From NCBI GenBank assembly GCA_002763895.1, contig NSLH01000020.1, forward strand, positions 1 to 48,401: 48,401 nucleotides of DNA, written 5' to 3'. The notes under the pieces were generated by a model. That model was not told the origin of the DNA. It was given only the letters and a program-made list of their open reading frames with translations, and searched no databases. This document shows, piece by piece, positions 8,770 to 41,463 of the stretch. How positions within the stretch are numbered: the stretch's first letter is position 1; every line of letters starts with the position of its first letter. Source of the stretch: [Chlorobium] sp. 445. Lineage in GTDB: Bacteria; Bacteroidota; Chlorobiia; Chlorobiales; Thermochlorobacteraceae. Made by a program: the position numbers and the translations under genes.

Positions 8770-11707
8770 ATGCCACAAACTGAAAAAAATACAGACACAC
8801 CAACTTCGTCAGCAACAAAGCCAAGGCGTAAACCCACAAAGAAAGCAAAGGGTGCACTACTGGCTGCACTCTCACAGCGTCAGCATGAAATTCTGGGTAC
8901 AAGTATTTTGATGCTCTCCCTGCTGCTGCTGATTGCAATTGTGGCTTACTCACCTGATGATGATTCCGTCATTGAAAACGTCTCACTCTTTGAGTTCTTC
9001 TCCGAAGTAGGCAAACTTGCTGCAGCACGCCTGCGCAACCCGCTCGGTTTTTTTGGCGCAAAACTCTCTGGTTTCCTCGTGCAATCCGTTTTAGGCTATC
9101 CTACTGCAATTTTAGTGTTGGTATCGGGCTACTGGGGCTGGACACTCTTTCGTCAAAATGGCTACGAGAAAGCGGCATTTGCTACAGTGTATGCCGTGCT
9201 CTTCTCAATCTTGGTGGCGTCGCTCTTTGGGCTCACGCACTTCTCATTTAGTCAAGTGATGTCGGGCACGATAGGGCGTTTCGTTGCAGCTTTTCTTACC
9301 GCTGCTATCGGCAAATTTGGAGCATGGGCAATTCTGCTGGCGCTGCTTGCTGCAACTATAGTACTCTTCATTGATCTCGACGTGCAGAAAACTGCTGACC
9401 GCGTTCTCTATCTCTTCCGCAACAAAGCAACAGAAGCTCAAGTGCGATTCAAAGAGTGGTATCAAGCCCGTCAGATGCGCCGTAAAGCCGAGCAAGATGC
9501 CAAGCAAGAAAATGACCGTGAAGAAATCGAAGAGCATGAACTTACACCACCACAGAGCAACACACCTGAAACGGAAAAAAGCAGGCTGAAGTCTGAGGCA
9601 AGTATAGCCGCTGAAAAGCATGAGCCAATTTTGCCAAAAACAGAACAAAGCATCATGCCGCCACGTGAGAAAGTGCCAACAGTCGTGATGTCAAGCCCGC
9701 TTGTAGCAGAGAGTGAAGCAAAGACGGGCAGAGCACTAAGCAGAGAAGAGCAACAAAGCAGCATGGTGGTGGAATTACCAATAAAGACAGAAAGTCAGTG
9801 TGCAGAATCGCAATTTGAGTGCAAGCCACAAGCAAAAGAGGCTACACACAGCACAGATGCACAAGGCAAAACAATCCGCATAGGGCAGAAAAGCGATGAG
9901 GAAGACAACCCCTTCAGCGATATCGATCTTGAAAAGAAACTCAGTGAAGCCGAAGCCCAAGCGTTTAACATGCTGGCAGTAAGAACCACAACTAACTGGG
10001 CAAAAGCATTCACAAAAGAATTTGACAACGAAATTGACGATGTTCTAAAAGAATTTTTGAGTAAAAAATCAAGCATCATAAGCACTCAACAAGAGGAAAT
10101 TGCAGGGGCAGCGGAGCAAAAAGCCGTGTTGGATGAACAAGAGCCTCAAATCACTATCATTGAACCTGTAAAAGATGTGGCGGCAGATTTAGACGATAGA
10201 ACACTGGAGGTTAAAACAAAAGAGAAATTTATTTATCAATTCCCTTCGGTAGATTTATTGATTGAGCCTGAACCTGAACAGGATACCGTGTCGCTGGAGG
10301 AACTTGAAGAAAACAAGCGCAAACTTTTAGAGAAATTGCGCATCTATAAAATTGAAATCACGCGCATTGAAGCGACGGTAGGACCAAGGGTTACGCTCTT
10401 TGAACTTGAACTTGCACCGGATGTGAAAGTTAGCCGCATTGTGGCACTGCAAGATGACCTTGCAATGGCGATGGCAGCACGCGGTATTCGCATCATTGCG
10501 CCAATTCCAGGCAAAAATGCAGTTGGCGTTGAGATTCCTAATGCCAAGTCGCATATCGTACGCATTAAGTCGTTACTCAATAGCGAGAAGTTCAAAAGCT
10601 CCAAATTCAAACTGCCAATTGCCTTTGGCAAAACGATAGCAAATGAAATTTTTATCGACGACCTTGCTAAGATGCCGCACCTGCTTGTAGCTGGTGCAAC
10701 AGGGTCAGGCAAATCGGTTGGCATCAATACCATACTGACCAGTCTACTCTATTTCTGCTCACCAGAGCAAGTCAAATTTTTGTTAATTGATCCTAAGCGT
10801 GTGGAGCTCTTTCCGTATCAACGTCTGAAGCATCATTTTCTTGTGAAGTTTCAGGACTTGGAGGAGCAGATTATCACCGATACCAGCAAAGCTGTATATG
10901 CGCTCAAATCCGTCGAGAAAGAAATGGATAATCGTTACGAGCGCTTGGCAAAAGCGGGGGTACGAAATCTGCAAGCCTTCAACGAAAAAATTTCCTGATG
11001 ATGCTCTGCCGTTTATTGTGGTTGTCATTGATGAACTTGCCGATATGATGATTACCGCTGGGCGTGAAGTGGAGGAGCCAATTGCACGGTTAGCGCAACT
11101 GGCACGTGCGGTTGGAATTCATTTAGTGGTTGCTACACAGCGTCCATCTGTGGATGTAATCACGGGAGTCATTAAAGCCAATTTCCCTGCGCGCATTGCC
11201 TATCAAGTCGCTAGCAAAGTAGACTCACGCACGATTTTAGATACAATGGGCGCAGAGCAACTCTTGGGCAATGGCGATATGCTCTACTTACCTGCAACAC
11301 AACCTAAGCCAATTCGCTTGCAAAATGCGTTTGTCTCAACAGAAGAAGTTGAAGCGGTTACGGATTTTATTTATGCGCAGAAAGGCGTCGATCTGTCGTA
11401 TCCCTTGCCCGCACCGGATGTGAAATCTGCAACTAAATCTGCCAGCGAGTTTGGCGATGATGAGGAGGAAAGCAGCGGGGAGCGCGATAAAATGTTTAAT
11501 GAAGCAGCGCGTTTGGTGGTAAGACATCAGCAGGGAAGTGTCTCGCTCTTGCAGCGGCGATTAAAGTTAGGTTTTGGACGCGCTGCACGCATCATGGACC
11601 AGTTAGAAGAACATGGAATTGTGGGACCGCCAGATGGTAGCAAGCCACGTCAAGTCTTGGTGCAGTCCGAAGAGGAATTAGAGATGCGCCTTGCTGATTT
11701 AAGCTGA
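8770..11707 (+). CDS. ftsK: DNA translocase FtsK/SpoIIIE, one frameshift
   Basis: FtsK pumps chromosome dimers and termini through the closing septum and activates XerCD. The N terminus is basic and is followed by about four membrane segments (residues about 37-59, 100-125, 130-155 and 180-200). Next comes a long acidic, Gln/Glu-rich linker (about 215-500), then the alpha/beta motor with Walker A GATGSGKS (about residue 643) and Walker B VVVIDELADM. A C-terminal winged-helix gamma domain (RRLKLGFGRAARIMDQLEEHGI) recognises polar DNA sequences in relatives. The frame breaks at 10991-10993: T3 after NEKI should be T2, and removing one T gives NEKIPDDALPFIVVVIDEL and a 978-residue protein. It faces clpC across a shared terminator. 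Confidence 0.93.
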
Positions 11708-27730: not shown

Positions 27731-28617
27731 TTAGAAAATGCGCAACTGAACTTTGATGCCTTCTTTTTGTCCTAACTTCAAGATAGAATCAAGGTTACTG
27801 ACCACGCTATCGAGTTTCATAACAAATTTTTCATCGTTGAGCACTTTACCCACCAGTGTAGAGCGGTCTGTTTTTAAGCGGTTTGTAAGCTCTTTAAGAG
27901 AAATAACCAGCGAATCAGCATCGCGAAGTGTGCCACGCGCATCACCCAGTGCACCTTTGAGTTCGGGCTGAATCTCATTGATGAGTTTTTCGACGGTGCC
28001 GATAGTGCGGTCAATGTTGTTGAGTAGGGTTTTGATGTTAGCGCTGCGTAAATCACGACTAAGCACAGCAAGGTCTGTGGTGGCATGGCGAAGGTTGCGC
28101 ACGGAAATTTTGAGATTTTCTTGCACTTCTTCATCACCGATGAATGCATCAGCATTACGTAAGACGCGGCGCACATCTGCAATTAAAATCTTGAGTGTAT
28201 CAATAGTGCCACCCGCGCCGCCAATAAGTTCGGGAATATCAGACAGAAAAACCCCACGAATGGTTTCACCTTGGGCAAGTTCGCCTGCATCTTTACTGCC
28301 TTGTGAGAGTTCAACTTTTTGCCCGTCATCAATTCGAGCATGGCAATGTATGCCGTTGCATTGCGATAAAGGGTAATATCTGGCGCAATGGAAATCAGCA
28401 CATTCACATGCCCATCACGCAATGTGATATTGTCGACTTTACCGACACGCAAGCCGCTAATCATGACGGGGTCGCCAGCTTGCAAGCCACTGACATTTTC
28501 AAAGCGAACATTGAATTGTTTGCTGCCAACCTGCACATCTTTTGCCCACCAAAGCACAAAGCCAAGCAAAGCGAGTGCAAACGAGACCGTAAGACCAACC
28601 TTAAGTTCCGGTTTCAT
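27731..28617 (-). CDS. MCE/MlaD family lipid-transport protein, one frameshift
   Basis: An N-terminal membrane anchor (VGLTVSFALALLGFVLWW) is followed by the MCE domain (FNVRFENVSGLQAGDPVMISGLRVGKVDNI, about residues 35-64, on to MTGKKVEL). A long helical region with coiled-coil character then runs to the end (LSRDLRSANIKTLLNNIDRTIG onward). MCE proteins carry lipids across the periplasm as the substrate-binding part of Mla-type ABC systems. The frame breaks at 28316-28320: A5 in the coding strand should be A6, which restores GKKVELSQGSKDAGELAQG and gives 295 residues. No permease or ATPase gene is in the window. The start overlaps the aroQ stop by 4 bp. Confidence 0.9.
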
Positions 28618-32164: not shown

Positions 32165-32392
32165 GTGTGGAAATTACTCCTTTATGCTTAACTGTGAAGT
32201 TAAATTTTTGTTGCAATTAAGGCGGCAAATTTACACAAATCTCTGCATAGAGAAGTGCTAATTTGTTGTAAAAATTGTAAACAAACTCGCCACAGACACC
32301 CACGGACTTTTTTAACAACTGGTGTCGGAAGTCTCAAAAGGAAGTTGTAAATTCATAAAGCCATCGCTAAGGTTTAGCTGACCCTTAAAACA

Positions 32393-32398
32393 GAGGAG
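32393..32398 (+). promoter_or_regulatory. Strong Shine-Dalgarno site for the kinase-like gene
   Basis: GAGGAG lies 7 bases before the ATG at 32406. It is one of the few textbook sites in this window and fixes the start. Confidence 0.6.
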
Positions 32399-32405
32399 TT
32401 GTAAC

Positions 32406-33191
32406 ATGAATACCTACCGCTTTCCGCCAAAAGACTGGCTTGATTTACCTAACTTTCTTTCCGCTGAAGAATTCAAAAATTTACCACCAAACGCTAATAC
32501 CTGCATCATCATTGAAGGCATGACCTATGCTGGTCGACACACACAAGCCCAAGTGATGAGTGAAGAGTTAGGCTTGCCAAAGTTTGCCTTCTCCGAATGG
32601 GTTACAAAGTACCCACCTGAAAATGAAGAAGAGCGTCAGATCATTGCCGAGTGCTTGCGCAACAGTGTGTATTTGCCTGATGCGTTACGCAACAAAGTTG
32701 CAGACTGGGCACTGCACGAATTTTACGACAAACGCCATACCGACGATGAATACTACAGCCGACCGTTTATTATGGTAGGCTACCCGCGCACGCTCGAGCA
32801 AGCTAAACACTTCCAGAAGTTTTTGGAGCAGCGCAACATCTATGCGCTTGTAGCAATCATTGAAATCAATTCAAAAGAAGCGCGCAGGCGGATGAGTGAA
32901 AGTACCGTCAAGCGCATTGGACATGAGAGCGATAAACTGCCTGAAGTGCAAAAAATTCGAATAGGTGAATACTTCCTCAAAACGCATGGCTACCTCAAAT
33001 GGCTACTGCTGATGGAAAAGGCAGTAGGTTTCAAAACATGTCTCGATCGCTCTGAATACGAACAGCGCAAACATGAATTTTCCGAAGTCATTGATCGTGG
33101 CGACTATGTTGTGCTCTCACAGCAAGATGTCAGTCAAATGATTATGAAGTTCTTAGGCATGTTCCATTTTGTGCAATACAGCGGCGCGTAA
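32406..33191 (+). CDS. Adenylate-kinase-like protein with degenerate P-loop
   Basis: The 261-residue protein aligns by eye with adenylate kinases: a P-loop-like IIEGMTYAGRHTQAQ (about residues 36-50), a NMP-binding-like region ending VYLPDAL, the GYPRTLEQAKHF strand matching GFPRT in Adk (about 123-134), a IEINSKEARRRM segment matching the Adk LID entry, and RIGEYFLKTHGYLKWL matching the Adk C-terminal RLxxY helix. The P-loop differs from GxPGxGKGT: the invariant Lys is Arg, and two glycines are Tyr and His. Phosphotransfer is therefore doubtful, and a binding or regulatory role is possible. It lies 52 bp upstream of pbpC and may share its operon. Confidence 0.75.
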   Translation: MNTYRFPPKDWLDLPNFLSAEEFKNLPPNANTCIIIEGMTYAGRHTQAQVMSEELGLPKFAFSEWVTKYPPENEEERQIIAECLRNSVYLPDALRNKVADWALHEFYDKRHTDDEYYSRPFIMVGYPRTLEQAKHFQKFLEQRNIYALVAIIEINSKEARRRMSESTVKRIGHESDKLPEVQKIRIGEYFLKTHGYLKWLLLMEKAVGFKTCLDRSEYEQRKHEFSEVIDRGDYVVLSQQDVSQMIMKFLGMFHFVQYSGA

Positions 33192-33243: not shown

Positions 33244-35679
33244 ATGAAGGCAGCAGCATTGACAACTCGACAAGCACTTGTGATGCTTGTGATAGCAGCA
33301 CTGCCTACACTTTACATTTTGCTACCAGTCTCAAAATCTGACATTGAGCAAACACGTCAGCATTCCTTGCGCATCTACGACCGCAATGGCTTGCTACTGC
33401 GCGAAGTTCTAAGCGATGAATATGCGCTCTTGCAGCGTGTTTCATTAAAAGACTTACCGCTCTATGTTCGCCAAGCCATGCTTGCCATTGAAGACAAAAA
33501 TTTTTACTCACACATTGGCATTGATATTGGCGCAGTGCTGCGCGCCGCGTGGCAGAACGTCAAAGCCATGCAGGTTGTCTCTGGCGCAAGCACTATCACG
33601 CAGCAGACAGCTCGATTGGTTTTGCATGCCGAGCGTGGCATTCTGCAAAAGGTTTGGACAATACTCTTTGCACTGCGCATGGAACTCTATCTTTCCAAAG
33701 ATGAAATCTTGGAAGAGTATTTCAATCGTGTGCCCTTCGGTAATCAAACTTTCGGCATTGCAGCGGCATCAGAGCGCTATTTTCAGAAATCGCCCTCGCA
33801 CCTGACGCTGGCAGAAGCTGCACTACTAGCAGGCTTGCCGCAATCGCCCTCACGCTATAATCCATTTCACTCACTTGCAAAAGCAAAGAAGCGACAAGAA
33901 GAAGTGCTGCGTCGGATGTTAGCCTTAGGATTCATCACAGAACATGAGTTGCTCGATGCGCTGGCACAACCAATTAACCTTTTGCCTGCAAAACAAGCCT
34001 TTCGTGCGCCACATTTCGTCGATGCGCTGCTTGCGCGTGAAGTGCAACGCTCTAAGACACAACCGCAAGCACTCTACACAACACTCGACTTGCCACTGCA
34101 AGAAGCCTGTGAGCGGTATGTGCGTGAGCATTTACGGCAATTGCGAGGACATCATGTAACGAACGCTGCGGTTGTGGTGATGGAAAATCGCACGGGGGAT
34201 ATTTTAGCGATGGTGGGCTCGGCTGATTACTTTAACGCAGAGATTGATGGGGCATATAACGCTGCACTTGCGGCGCGTCAGCCCGGTTCGGCGCTCAAAC
34301 CTTTTACCTATGCACTCGCACTCGAGAAAGGCATGAGCGGCTCTACAATTTTACCCGACTTGCCACTGTCTTTCCGCATCATCGACCGCCCGAACAGTGA
34401 AGGCATATCTGAAACCTTTTTCCCACAAAACTTTGACAAGAAATTTCATGGACCTGTGCGTCTGCGCCAAGCGCTGGCATGTTCCTACAACATCACCGCA
34501 GTAAAAGTTATGGAATATGTTGGCGTAGAAAATCTTTACAACTTGCTCCGCTCACTTGGTTTTACAACACTCACTAAAGAAGCCAGCCATTACGGTTTAG
34601 GACTCACGCTGGGCAGCAGCGACGTGCGGCTGTTAGAAATGGTGCGCGCCTATTCGATTTTCATGCGTGGCGGTCAGTGGCTGCCAGAGCGATGGATCGT
34701 GCGTCGCATCGAAGCAAATGGCGATACGACAGACTTAGCGCCTGCAAAGCCGAGCCAAAAGCGATATCTTTCGCCGGAGGTTGCGTATCTCATCGCAGAT
34801 ATTCTAAACGATAATGCGGCACGCCGACCAGCGTTCGGAGCAAACTCTGTCCTGCGATTTCCCTTTGCCACACTCTGTAAAACAGGTACCACGAAAGACT
34901 TCCGAGATAATTGGACATTTGGCGCAACAGAAGATTTCACCGTTGGCGTTTGGGTCGGTAATTTTGATGGCACACCGATGCAGAACATTTCTGGAGTCGA
35001 TGGTGCAGGTCCAATCCTACGCGATGTCTTCATGCACCTCTTCAAGACCTACCCTGACAAACAAGGCTTTCAGAAAAGCGAGTTTGATATGCCAGCTACG
35101 ATGAAAGTGCGCAAGGTGTGCCCGCTCTCTGGCGACCTTGTGTGCGAACACTGTCCAAGCGCCATTGAAGAAAAGTTTGTCTTGAATCATTTACCTAAAA
35201 AGCGATGCACTGTGCATCGACGCTTTAAGATTGATCAGCGAACAGGGACACTAGCGACAGCAAACACGCCACGAGAGTTTGTTCAAGAGACTTTGTTTGA
35301 AGACTATCCGCCCGAATATCGAGAATGGGCACTGGCACAGCATAAGCCCCTGCCACCGCAAGCATTTTCCACGCTTGACGATTCACTACGTCTGGCAGAA
35401 GAGCAATCGCCGCACGAACCCAAAATCACCTACCCGATTTCAGAGATGATATTTGCGTGCGATAAAGATTTGCGCACAGACTTTCAGGCAATTGTCTTCA
35501 AGGCACTTGTGCCAAGAAATGCAAAAAAAGTAGAGTGGATTCTCAATGATGAAAAGTTGGGCGAAAGCAGTGCTATGCAACCGCAGTGGCTCTGGCAAAT
35601 TCGCTCAGGGACGTTTCGACTGCAAACCGTTGTCGACGGACAGCGCAGTAAGCCCGTTGCCTTTACTGTAATCGAATAG
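33244..35679 (+). CDS. pbpC: Penicillin-binding protein 1C
   Basis: This bifunctional peptidoglycan synthase has 811 residues. A membrane anchor (about 10-30) precedes a GT51 transglycosylase domain with AIEDKNFYSHIGIDIGA (catalytic Glu) and GASTITQQTARL. The transpeptidase domain carries the SxxK motif in QPGSALKPFTYALALEKG, SYN, and KTG in LCKTGTTKDFRDNW. The C-terminal 100 or so residues match the extra PBP1C domain. A cysteine cluster (CPLSGDLVCEHC) before it is typical of PBP1C. The gene is intact. The alpha-2-macroglobulin gene follows 43 bp downstream, the same pairing as in E. coli (pbpC-yfhM). Confidence 0.95.
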   Translation: MKAAALTTRQALVMLVIAALPTLYILLPVSKSDIEQTRQHSLRIYDRNGLLLREVLSDEYALLQRVSLKDLPLYVRQAMLAIEDKNFYSHIGIDIGAVLRAAWQNVKAMQVVSGASTITQQTARLVLHAERGILQKVWTILFALRMELYLSKDEILEEYFNRVPFGNQTFGIAAASERYFQKSPSHLTLAEAALLAGLPQSPSRYNPFHSLAKAKKRQEEVLRRMLALGFITEHELLDALAQPINLLPAKQAFRAPHFVDALLAREVQRSKTQPQALYTTLDLPLQEACERYVREHLRQLRGHHVTNAAVVVMENRTGDILAMVGSADYFNAEIDGAYNAALAARQPGSALKPFTYALALEKGMSGSTILPDLPLSFRIIDRPNSEGISETFFPQNFDKKFHGPVRLRQALACSYNITAVKVMEYVGVENLYNLLRSLGFTTLTKEASHYGLGLTLGSSDVRLLEMVRAYSIFMRGGQWLPERWIVRRIEANGDTTDLAPAKPSQKRYLSPEVAYLIADILNDNAARRPAFGANSVLRFPFATLCKTGTTKDFRDNWTFGATEDFTVGVWVGNFDGTPMQNISGVDGAGPILRDVFMHLFKTYPDKQGFQKSEFDMPATMKVRKVCPLSGDLVCEHCPSAIEEKFVLNHLPKKRCTVHRRFKIDQRTGTLATANTPREFVQETLFEDYPPEYREWALAQHKPLPPQAFSTLDDSLRLAEEQSPHEPKITYPISEMIFACDKDLRTDFQAIVFKALVPRNAKKVEWILNDEKLGESSAMQPQWLWQIRSGTFRLQTVVDGQRSKPVAFTVIE

Positions 35680-35722: not shown

Positions 35723-38700
35723 ATGCTGAAGGGTATGCGTTCTGTAGTGGGACTTCTTTTGCTTTCGCTGCTTGTACTTTCATGCAAAAAAGAAGATGAA
35801 GGCTTTGCGCCATTTGAAGCAGGGCAACTTGGTGCGCTCACAACGGAAGAAAAACCGCTCCCGCCCTCTAGCGACGCGCTAACTGTGCTTTCAGCCACCC
35901 CAATCGGAGAACTGCAATCTTATTTGCAAGCACAGACCATAGCAGTTGTCTTCAATGAGTCAATGGTAGAAGTCAGCGATGAGACGCAGAACGAAGTGCC
36001 CAGTGGTCCCTTCAAAATTGAGCCGGCGCTCAAAGGCACTTATCGCTGGCTTGGGGCACGCACCATCATTTTCACGCCAAGCGATTCACTGCCGCTTGCG
36101 ACCACTTTCAAGGTAAGTGTGCCGAAAGGTATAAAAGCACTCTCAGGCAAGGCACTTGCAGAAGACTATACTTTCGAATTTACCACTTTGCGTGTAGGGA
36201 TTGAACAAATCGCGCCAGTATTTCAGGTGGCGCCGCAAGGGGAAATCATCGTCAGGTTTAATCAACCTGTAACGATGGAGATTGCAAAAAAATTGTGCTG
36301 CGAGACGAAAAAGGAGCAGAGATAAAATTCACTGCCTATCAGGTGTCGCCAAATGATGCGTTAAAAAAGCAAGAAGAGTTTCGCAAGAATCGCCAGTATA
36401 GTGAAGCGTATTTGCTCTCCCCAAGCAGCCTCAATAAGCTAGTGTTGCTTAAGCCTACAGGCTTGCAAGTTGGCAAAACTTACACGGTGGAGTTCAGGAA
36501 GTCACCAGCAGAACTGCAAACCTTTAACTTTTCGACCTACAACGAGTTCAAGTTTACAGGCAAGCTCGAAAATACGATTTCGCCAAACGAAGGGATTAAC
36601 TTCGAGTTTTCAAATCTTGTCTATCGCGCCGATTTAATGAAGCATCTGTCGTTGAGTTTTAAGGTCGATTCAGCTTACTTGCGTCTGGACGCCTCTGATG
36701 AGGACTACGCATCAAGTTCACACTATTTGCCCCTTGGCTTCAAGCCAGCGACGACGGAGAAAATTACCATCTCGAAGAATCTGACGGATAAATATGGCAA
36801 TAAGCTAGCAAACGATGTGGTCATCACGGTCAAAGTCAGTGATTATCCGGAAAGCGTAGCGATTCCAACGGGTGATGTGGTTATGGAGCATGATACACCG
36901 TTTCTTGAAGTGCGTGCAATGAACAAAACCAGCGTAGAACTTGAACTTGCATCACTCTCACCAAACGATGTGATGAGTAATTCGACAAGGTATTATTATG
37001 ACGGGGCAGAGCAGGCTGCTGCCGTCTCTGGACTTCGCACTTTTCCTATTTCATTCAAAAATCGAAAGAATCAATTAAGCATAGAGGCTGTGGATTTGCG
37101 AACTGTACTGGATGGCAAATCCTCGGGCTTCGTTTTTGCGCAAGTTAAGTCGCCATACTACGATAGCTATGCAAAAAAAACACGCTATACCTATCAGCGC
37201 GCTTTGATTCAAGTTACACCTTTTGCAGTTGCAGCTAAGCACGCCAAAGAGGGCGCACTTGTAATGGTTACGCAGCTCAAAGATGCTAGCCCTGTGGCAG
37301 GAGCGACGGTAAAAGTCTATGATAACAATCGCACCCTGCTGTGGAGCGGCACTACAAATGCACAGGGTGTGGCGAAACTTCCTAGTTTTAACACCTCACC
37401 TTTTTACTTCTTTGTTGAGCAAGGAGAAAATGTCGCCTACACAACTGCTGCGTTTAGAGAAGGCATTGAGCCGTATCGCTTCAGGCTATATGAAACAAGA
37501 GAGTATGAAGAAAATGAGTACAACACCGCCGATGCACTACGCGGCGTAATTTTCACGGAGCGCGGGCTGTATCGTGCAGGTGAGAGCATTTACTTCAAAG
37601 GCACGATGCGCGAATACAAGAATAGCAAATGGCAATTGCCAGCACGGCGCAATTACTACCTGCTTGTCAAAAATAGCCGCGATGAAACCTTGCTCAAACG
37701 TAAAGTTTCACTGAACAACTTCGGCTCGTTTGCTGACTCGGTGAAAACAGCTGCAACAGCGCCGCTGGGCTATTACTCGATTGTGCTCAAAGAAAATGAC
37801 GACGAGAGTTTGTATCCCTCGGTGGCAAGTACCAGATTTCGTGTGGAAGCCTATCGTCCAGCAACCTTCAGCGTTAAAATTATGCCAGAGCAGAATCACA
37901 TCTTTAACGGTGATGAACTTAAAGCGACAATTGAAGGACGTTATCTTTTCGGAGCGCCGATGACCGGTGATGCGGTCTCATGGTCGATTCAGCGTAGCCC
38001 ACTGGAGTTCATCACATTTGAAGGCTACGAGGGTTATGCCTTCACCAAGATGAAGCGATATGATGAGCGCAACGAGGATGAGACAGAATTTTTCATTGCG
38101 TCAGGATCAGGTACGGTCGATAACTTAGGTCAATACAAACTTGTGCAAAGAATTGCGCTAAAATCCTCACAGCCCGCCGTGCTCACCATTGAAGGCACAG
38201 TAACTTCGCCTTCACGTCAAGCCATTTCAGAGCGGGTTAGCGTACGATTCCACCCTGCAGAGTTTTACATTGGCTTGAAGCCAAAATCACTCTTTGCCAA
38301 AGAAAATGAAGCGTTGCCTATTGAAGTCGTTACGCTCTTGCACGATGGCAAAGCGCGCAGCGAGAAAGTAACCGTAGAGTTAGTGCATCGTCAGTGGGTT
38401 TCAGTAAAGCGTGTGGGCGTAAGTGGTCGTTTGGAATGGTCGTCTGAGCCTGTAGATTCTGTGGTCTTCAAGCAAGAGATGGCGACGAAAGAAAAAGAAG
38501 CTGTCACGCTCTCACTGCCTATCAAAGGGTCAGGGTTCTATGTGGTTCGAGCGATGGGCAAGGATGCAAAAGGTAATGTGGCACGCAGCGAGACAGCCAT
38601 CTATGCTTCTGGTATGGACTATGCCGCTTGGGAACGACGTGACGATGATCGCATTGAGATTTTGCTAGACAAAAAAACATACAAGCCGGGCGAAACCGCT

Positions 38701-41463
38701 ACGCTCTTCATTCAATCGCCTTACGAGAGTGCAACAGCATTGCTCACGATTGAGTGCGAAGGCGTTTTGGATTACCGTCAATTTGAGCTCAAAAACACAG
38801 CGCCCTCCATACAAATTCCAATTAAGCCTGAATACTTGCCGAATGCGTTTGTCTCAGTAATGCTGCTCAAAGGTAGAACCGCACCGCCGGGTAAGTTCAA
38901 AGAAGGGGATTTGGGTAAGCCATCTTTCAAAATTGGCTATACGAGAATGTCGGTGGATGCGTCCTCAAGGCGGCTTAGTGTAGAGATTAAGCCAAACAAA
39001 AAAGAATATCGTGTAGGTGAGACGGTCGAAGTGGAGTTGCAGGCTAAAGATGCGGAGGGACAAGGCTTGCAAACTGAAATTGCACTGGCGGCTGTCGATG
39101 CTGGGGTGCTCAATCTCATCGGTTACAAATTCCCGAATATGTTTGAGCGATTCTATGCGCAGCGGCTCCTGGAAGTAGAGACGTCTATCAATGTCATTCA
39201 CCTAATTGATCAGCGCAATTACGGCGAGAAAGGTGAAACACGCGGTGGCGATAAAGGCGGCGATGGCACAGGAGGCTTTTCATTCCGAAAGGATTTTCGA
39301 GTAACGCCCTACTGGAATCCGACTATTCTCACCGATGAAAGCGGCAGAGCTAAAATTAGCTTCAAACTGCCAGATAACCTCACCACATTCAGCTTGATGG
39401 CAGCGGCACAAACAATTGATCAATTCGGCAATGCGCAAACTCAGATTCTCACAACACAACCTCTGGTGATGACCGCAGCCTTGCCACGCTTTGTGCGCGT
39501 TGGCGATAAGTTTGAGGCAGGCGTTGTAGTAACGAACAACACTGACCAGAAAATCACGGTTACGGTTTCTGCAGCAGCACAAGGCGTGAAGTTTGTCGGT
39601 GAAGGCAAAGAAAAACTCTCTTTAGAACCGCGCACCTCCAAAGAAGCACGTTTCCGCTACGAAGCCGAAGCAGAAGGCACAGCGACCTTTGGCTTTACTG
39701 CAGAGAGCGATGCGGGTCAGCGCGATGCGCTGAAAGTCTCAATTCCCGTGCAAACTCCCTACATCAAAGAAACACTGGCGCTGGTTGGTGCAACAGAAGG
39801 GGCGCAAACTGAAATTGTCAAAATCCCGAAAGCGTATATCCCAACGTTGGTGAAGTCTCTGTGCAAACTGCCTCTACAGCACTGGTCGGCTTGCGTGAAG
39901 CCACAGCATATCTTTTTAACTATCCCTATGGCTGCTTGGAGCAGCGCGTGTCGAGCATCTTGCCCTACATCGTGGCAACTGATTTGATTGAGACCTTTGA
40001 GCTCAAAACCAAAGCTGATACCGCAAAGGGGGGCTACAAAACCGTTGTAGAAAAAACGCTTGCAGACCTCGAAAAATACCGCGTGCCCTCTGGCGGATTT
40101 GACTTCTGGCCACAGCCACGACAGGCAAGCGACTATGTCTCTGTCTATGCTACTTACGCTATGACATTAGCCAAACTCAATGGCTTCAGTGTCGAGAATA
40201 GTTTGCAACGACACGGTGTGGAGTATCTGCGTCGCGTCTTGCGTAAGAGTGATGAGGCTTACTTCGGCTACTACTCAACGCAAACACTCAAAGCATTTGC
40301 ACTCTACACACTGGCGCTAAATGGTGAGTTTGATAACTCCGCAATCGAAAAACTCTATCAAGAGCGCAGCAAACTGCCCTTGCAATCCAAAGCATATCTG
40401 CTGCGTGCAATGGCATTACAAGGCTCACCTCAACTTGCAGGCGTGGGCAATGTCGGCTCAAGTACAAACCGATTCCAGACACGCATCGCTGAACTTGCGC
40501 GTGAGATGATGAACCTTGCAAAGATTCAAAACGCCACCGCACACTTTGAGGATGGCACAAAAAGCGATTGGATATGGACCTTCAACTCTCCGGTGAAAAC
40601 CACAGCAACGGTCTTACAAGCACTCTTAGAATCTGACCAAGGTAAAGACCTTGCAGAGAAAGTGGTGGCTTGGCTCTTGCAATCGCAGCGCAACGGGCGT
40701 TGGGAGACAACTCAAGAAAATATCTTTGTGCTGCAAGCGCTAAACACCTATTTCCGCAAGTATGAGAGCGATGTGCCTGATTTCCGCGCAAAGGTGACCT
40801 TAGCTGCACAGACGCTGATTGATGAGACCTTCAAAGGTCGCTCCCTCAAAGCAAAAGTAACGACAGAGAGCCTCGATAAATTCGCAAAAGGTGATGCGCT
40901 TTCGCTGACAATAAGCAAAGAAGGACAAGGCAAACTCTACTATGGTGTGCGCCTCTCGTATTATCCAACCTACGCGCTGAAATCAAGAGATAACGGTATT
41001 TCGATTTTCAAAAAAATTGAGCCGCTCTCAAGCGCAAAGCGTAATAAAGGTGAAGTCGCTGCGGGCGATATTGTAAAAGTGACGTTGCAAATTGCTGTGC
41101 CAGAAGAACGCCATTTCGTGGCTATCAACGATCCCTTGGCAGCGGGACTTGAAGCCATCAATCCGACGCTGAACACTGCACCACGCTTACCTGAAGCAGG
41201 CAGATACGAAGGAGAAGAGAGCGGTTATGAAGAAGAAATAGACCCCGAAGCGCTTTACACCTTTGATTTCATTGAGCTACGAGACGACCGCGTTACACTT
41301 TTCGCACAGCGTTTGGGCGCAGGCGTGCATACTTACACTTACTATGCACGCGCTACAACTTACGGCAATTTTTGTGATGCCGCCCAGCTACGGTGAAGAA
41401 ATGTATGCGCCTGAAGTCTACGGCAGAACGGGCACATCCAGACTGCGCGTGGTAGCAAAGTAA
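35723..41463 (+). CDS. Bacterial alpha-2-macroglobulin lipoprotein, three frameshifts
   Basis: This trap-type protease inhibitor of the periplasm is anchored by a lipobox (LLLLSLLVLSC, Cys 21). The order is: an Ig-like N-terminal region; MG macroglobulin domains; the YRPATFSVKI and FTERGLYRAGESIYFKG segments (MG2/MG3); the central TYWNPTILTDESGRAKISFKLPDNLTTF-like region; the thioester site YGCLEQR (about residue 1402); an alpha-toroid; and a receptor-like C-terminal domain. There are three shifts: A7 for A8 at 36286-36292 (restores AKKIVLRDEKGAEIKF), AA for AAA at 39843-39844 (restores YIPNVGEVSVQTASTAL), and T5 for T4 at 41370-41374 (restores YGNFVMPPSYGEEMY). Corrected length is 1913 residues, normal for the family. 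The intact CLEQ motif supports a working thioester. Confidence 0.93.

Follow-up and report, generated by a model that had tools for sequence, protein, structure and literature searches.

The window analysed here, a 48,401-nt stretch of DNA from [Chlorobium] sp. 445, contains a gene whose product resembles adenylate kinase (Adk) and carries a degenerate P-loop, which raises the question of whether this protein is still a kinase or serves another role. The gene (positions 32406-33191, forward strand) lies in contig C20 of a 2.8 Mb genome and is an intact ORF of 261 amino acids with an ATG start and a TAA stop. Direct reading of its ribosome-binding site region (32389-32405, forward strand; acagaggagttgtaac) revealed a strong Shine-Dalgarno sequence, AGAGGAG, about 9 nt 5' of the ATG. 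When this motif was compared across the orthologues found in 10 other genomes, a comparable AGGAG-type motif was present in genomes of the same genus and in G003, and it was weak or absent before the remaining ones. A canonical Adk is encoded separately in the same genome (contig C6, 197 bits).

The window protein matched the Pfam family ADK (PF00406) with 34.7 bits (E = 2.3e-8), passing the curated cut-off of 26.8 bits. This cut-off was exceeded by eight of the 11 genome copies, with those of G009 and G005 and the broken G003 copy falling below it. The match to TIGR01351 (45.5 bits, E = 6.9e-12) did not reach the functional cut-off of 168 bits, and the protein lies far under every Adk equivalog cut-off (TIGR01351 and the NF equivalogs). 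In a profile-profile comparison, the orthologue profile matched the canonical Adks of the order over residues 34-168 with a probability of 95.4% (E = 1.9e-8). Since all three matches are significant, the homology to Adk is not due to chance, and the initial annotation was right in recognising the fold markers of the enzyme, among them GYPRT at residues 125-129. The closest solved relatives are adenylate kinases as well. A structure prediction made from only two sequences (the window and L018) had a pLDDT of 37; the sequence profiles across residues 34-168 suggest that the Adk fold is retained. Weak Pfam matches of some members to KilA-N and Cupredoxin were judged to be chance, and a PHROGs search with the pseudokinase gave no match.

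Like bacterial Adk (PF00406, TIGR01351), the protein shows the motif order of the enzyme over residues 34-192, with GYPRT, the helix after the P-loop and the R...Y...T pattern closing the LID, whereas the catalytic Lys, two P-loop Gly, the Walker-B Asp, the AMP-site Thr and Arg and two LID/catalytic-loop Arg are replaced, the LID is short, and 32 N-terminal and additional C-terminal residues are present. These positions were compared between nine full-length orthologues and 14 canonical Adks of the same order, all 14 of which have the standard residues at the compared sites; all coordinates given below are on the forward strand. The translation confirmed the P-loop GMTYAGRHTQA (residues 38-48; 32517-32549) and the proposed loss of the lysine and of two glycines, K13 being replaced by R44, G10 by Y41 and G14 by H45. 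In all nine orthologues the lysine is Arg, as it also is in the partial G003 and G006 copies, G10 is Tyr or Arg and G14 is His or Tyr, with the loop following the pattern GM[TP][YR][AS]GR[HY]; the equivalents of G7, G12 and R119 are retained in all nine. In the altered AMP-site segment of the window protein (residues 60-69; 32583-32612), FAFSEWVTKY replaces STGDMLR, with T31 changed to Phe and R36 to Thr. T31 is Phe in every orthologue and R36 is always lost (Thr, Ser, Ala or Glu), while R88 is kept in eight and is His in one. Residues 124-129 (VGYPRT; 32775-32792) retain R128 (Adk R88) and have V124 in place of the Mg-coordinating Walker-B Asp (E. coli D84), which is Val in eight orthologues and Ala in one. 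The LID region (residues 156-189; 32871-32972) is short or missing in the alignments, with R162 retained and two LID Arg lost. Here, where the alignment is less certain, the R123 equivalent is Ser, Ala or Lys and the R156 equivalent Glu or Ser in all nine, and the equivalent of E. coli R167 is retained as Arg or Lys. The most divergent orthologue (L026 8310-9095, in G005) reads GYPHS for GYPRT and has also lost the last AMP-site Arg.

It has been reported that the K13Q exchange in E. coli Adk reduces kcat to 0.0002 of the wild type, leaving a protein 'catalytically dead but properly folded', and that R36A reduces it to 0.06 (PMC5028032); the lysine mutant measured was K13Q, and the orthologues carry a K13R-type change. 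Because the catalytic residues are replaced together, and in view of the effects of K13Q and R36A, adenylate kinase activity has very likely been lost in this family.

To describe where the family occurs, we distinguished the family of the window (f1, nine genomes), f2 (two genomes), f3 (one genome, G010) and f4 (86 genomes, evidently Chlorobiaceae). All nine f1 genomes searched, which belong to Ca. Thermochlorobacter and its relatives, have an orthologue, frameshifted in the case of G003. So do both f2 genomes; one of these, a complete genome of 3.29 Mb, is probably that of the cultured Chloroherpeton thalassium. No orthologue was detected in the 86 f4 genomes, in G010, the only f3 genome searched, or in the sampled remainder of the phylum (394 phylum genomes in all). 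The canonical Adk of G010 (L068) is without the long LID insert found in its relatives. Across the 394 genomes, the orthologues scored 460-515 bits, with lower values for the G003 and G006 fragments, and the next match reached 37.8 bits. As the 19 best matches below the orthologues all have GxPGxGKGT, the canonical Adk type, there is no intermediate between the family and canonical Adk in this sample of the phylum. No family member was found in the phages and viral contigs searched, and the plasmid search gave only two weak rhizobial matches, one of them annotated as adenylate kinase. Canonical Adk is present in every carrier genome except the draft G006. The degenerate loop is thus kept throughout the family, with no orthologue having GKGT; the range considered for it in the initial annotation, the Chlorobiota, was too wide, given its absence from all 86 f4 genomes.

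Two segments set the family apart. An N-terminal extension (residues 1-32; 32406-32501; LPNxLTAEEFKNLPPxA) was not found in canonical Adk in alignments of the orthologues and all Adks, and a family-specific C-terminal region (residues 211-261; 33036-33188; CLDRSEYEQRK...DRGDYVV...MIxKFLxMxHFVxxSGA) is conserved in all orthologues, with SGA as its last residues in seven of the nine members. Searching the 86 f4 genomes with this tail alone gave no match.

Orthologous proteins from different genera and families share 50-66% identity, and those of the same genus about 90%. The nearest named relative, Ca. Thermochlorobacter aerophilum (L018), shows 91%. The degenerate P-loop has a pairwise identity of 0.79 versus 0.64 for the whole protein, which argues for a new role of the loop and not for drift. 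Within the genus, dN/dS is 0.02-0.04, similar to the values of hslU (0.028) and hslV (0.026) and below that of pbpC (0.114), all of them being rough as dS is near saturation. The gene is under strong purifying selection. In the tree, a branch with 100/100 support and about 8 changes per column lies between the pseudo and the canonical proteins. On the sequence evidence, the family is an old, strongly diverged Adk paralogue, distinct in two related Chlorobiales families.

The protein thus combines the sequence hallmarks of a pseudoenzyme: homology to an enzyme, loss of catalytic residues, maintenance by selection and an active-type paralogue alongside. We consider it a putative non-catalytic, Adk-derived binding protein, a pseudoenzyme that has been maintained, with a probability of about 0.72. 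The initial annotation had proposed a nucleotide sensor or scaffold rather than a kinase. The part of this proposal that stands is that the protein is derived from Adk, is predicted to lack adenylate kinase activity and belongs to a distinct family; sensor or scaffold would be its best reading, and the sequence does not decide between the two. The Adk-type core may serve as a ligand-gated or a purely structural protein-binding module. The altered P-loop, with its invariant Gly-Met...Gly-Arg-His/Tyr, and a basic cluster (R44, R128, R162, R/K185) could hold a phosphorylated ligand with no Mg-dependent catalysis taking place or, alternatively, bind a protein partner, and the conserved C-terminal tail would transmit the state of the core to a partner.

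A divergent but active phosphotransferase, in which Arg stands in for the P-loop Lys and AMP has given way to another acceptor (nucleotide, sugar phosphate or protein), would account for part of the same data. Arg is a conservative substitute for Lys, and several basic residues of the active site (R128, R162, R/K185) are still present, so weak or altered phosphotransfer is possible; the altered loop is conserved and not drifting, with its Arg invariant, and a new enzyme, too, would be expected to evolve slowly after a very long stem branch. Nevertheless, both P-loop glycines have become bulky residues, the Walker-B/Mg Asp is Val or Ala, two LID/catalytic-loop Arg are lost, and no replacement suggests that a catalytic base or a metal site has been gained, which makes such an enzyme unlikely.

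It was also considered whether the protein might be a regulator or scaffold specific to peptidoglycan synthesis that works with PbpC. As the initial annotation stated, the gene ends 52 bp before a peptidoglycan synthase gene, pbpC (33244-35679, forward strand; ATG at 33244), which encodes penicillin-binding protein 1C (TIGR02073, 578.6 bits, above the cut-off). Throughout the genus (three genomes), only a short gap lies between the two adjoining genes, even in G001, where hslVU is not upstream, and in G003 they are 3.5 kb apart, separated by a TRAP-transporter-like set. Against a partnership, pbpC is on a different contig in G004, G005 and G007 (the G006 and G008 loci are interrupted by contig breaks), both f2 genomes carry the pseudokinase and gave no pbpC match at E <= 1e-120, and G010 has pbpC without the pseudokinase. 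A D-Ala-D-Ala dipeptidase gene (Peptidase_M15) close upstream in both f2 genomes would fit a peptidoglycan role, but it is divergently oriented, and an Ndk gene intervenes in G009. Near the pseudokinase of g3 there are a fatty-acid desaturase and a ferredoxin. No neighbour is common to all orthologue loci, and no conserved neighbour indicates a partner. A conserved pbpC operon was rejected, and the linkage expected across homologues turned out to be confined to the genus, loose in one more genus and missing elsewhere. Since the link is local, a role tied to the PbpC synthase is not supported, and we regard it as quite improbable; a connection of the pseudokinase with the envelope is a lead and not a finding.

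That the gene is decaying or reflects a sequencing artefact, as two 1-nt frameshifts in the G003 copy and indels in other window genes might suggest, can practically be dismissed, since the ORF is intact, the same loop recurs in independent genomes, eight other genomes have intact collinear copies, and purifying selection and the identity across genera and families refute decay for the family as a whole. The G003 orthologue (L020 8349-9136) is conserved apart from its frameshifts, which represent either an error or a recent loss. Several window genes other than the pseudokinase ORF carry indels. The alpha-2-macroglobulin-like gene 3' of pbpC (35723-41396) is split into three overlapping ORFs, likely by assembly indel errors or a recent break, and has a single stop-free frame in L018 (11388-16781). 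The FtsK/SpoIIIE-like gene (8770-11707) consists of two overlapping ORFs, with one 957-aa ORF in L019, and the MlaD-like gene (27731-28617) of two ORFs, with one open frame in L018.

Among known systems, UMP-CMP kinase and other NMP kinases (TIGR01359; AAA_17) belong to the same superfamily and use the same P-loop Lys, and their profiles match the pseudokinase more weakly than those of Adk. Human AK4 is said to retain an essentially normal P-loop and, unlike the pseudokinase, is a eukaryotic, mitochondrial protein, the two not being closely related. The likeness lies in an Adk-fold protein reported to act through partner binding and not catalysis: in a title cited in PMC10399197, AK4 appears as an 'enzymatically inactive' adenylate kinase with the ADP/ATP translocase as its binding partner. 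Inactive Adk relatives are thus already known in animals, and we found no description in the open-access literature of a conserved, catalytically dead bacterial pseudo-adenylate-kinase family.

A published Chloroherpetonaceae clade, described as gliding, includes Chloroherpeton and Thermochlorobacter (PMC9318685) and appears to correspond to f1 and f2. Among the relatives G000-G020, SprA, a protein of gliding and type IX secretion, was present in f1, f2 and f3, and a search of nine f4 genomes did not find it. The pseudokinase occurs in 11 of 12 SprA carriers, a match confounded by ancestry. Gliding as a strict correlate was rejected, as G010 has SprA without the pseudokinase. As a tentative extension of the pseudoenzyme reading, the protein might have specialised in sensing cell energy or a phosphorylated signal, in a family confined to gliding Chlorobiales; its Gly-Arg-His/Tyr loop would hold a ligand without turnover, and the tail would control a partner that acts in gliding or in envelope growth.

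The job of the pseudokinase is probably non-enzymatic and so far undescribed. Since its probable carrier Chloroherpeton thalassium has been cultured, activity, ligand binding and partners are experimentally accessible. The family would be an example of how bacteria turn an essential metabolic fold, that of the textbook enzyme Adk, into a binding or signalling protein.
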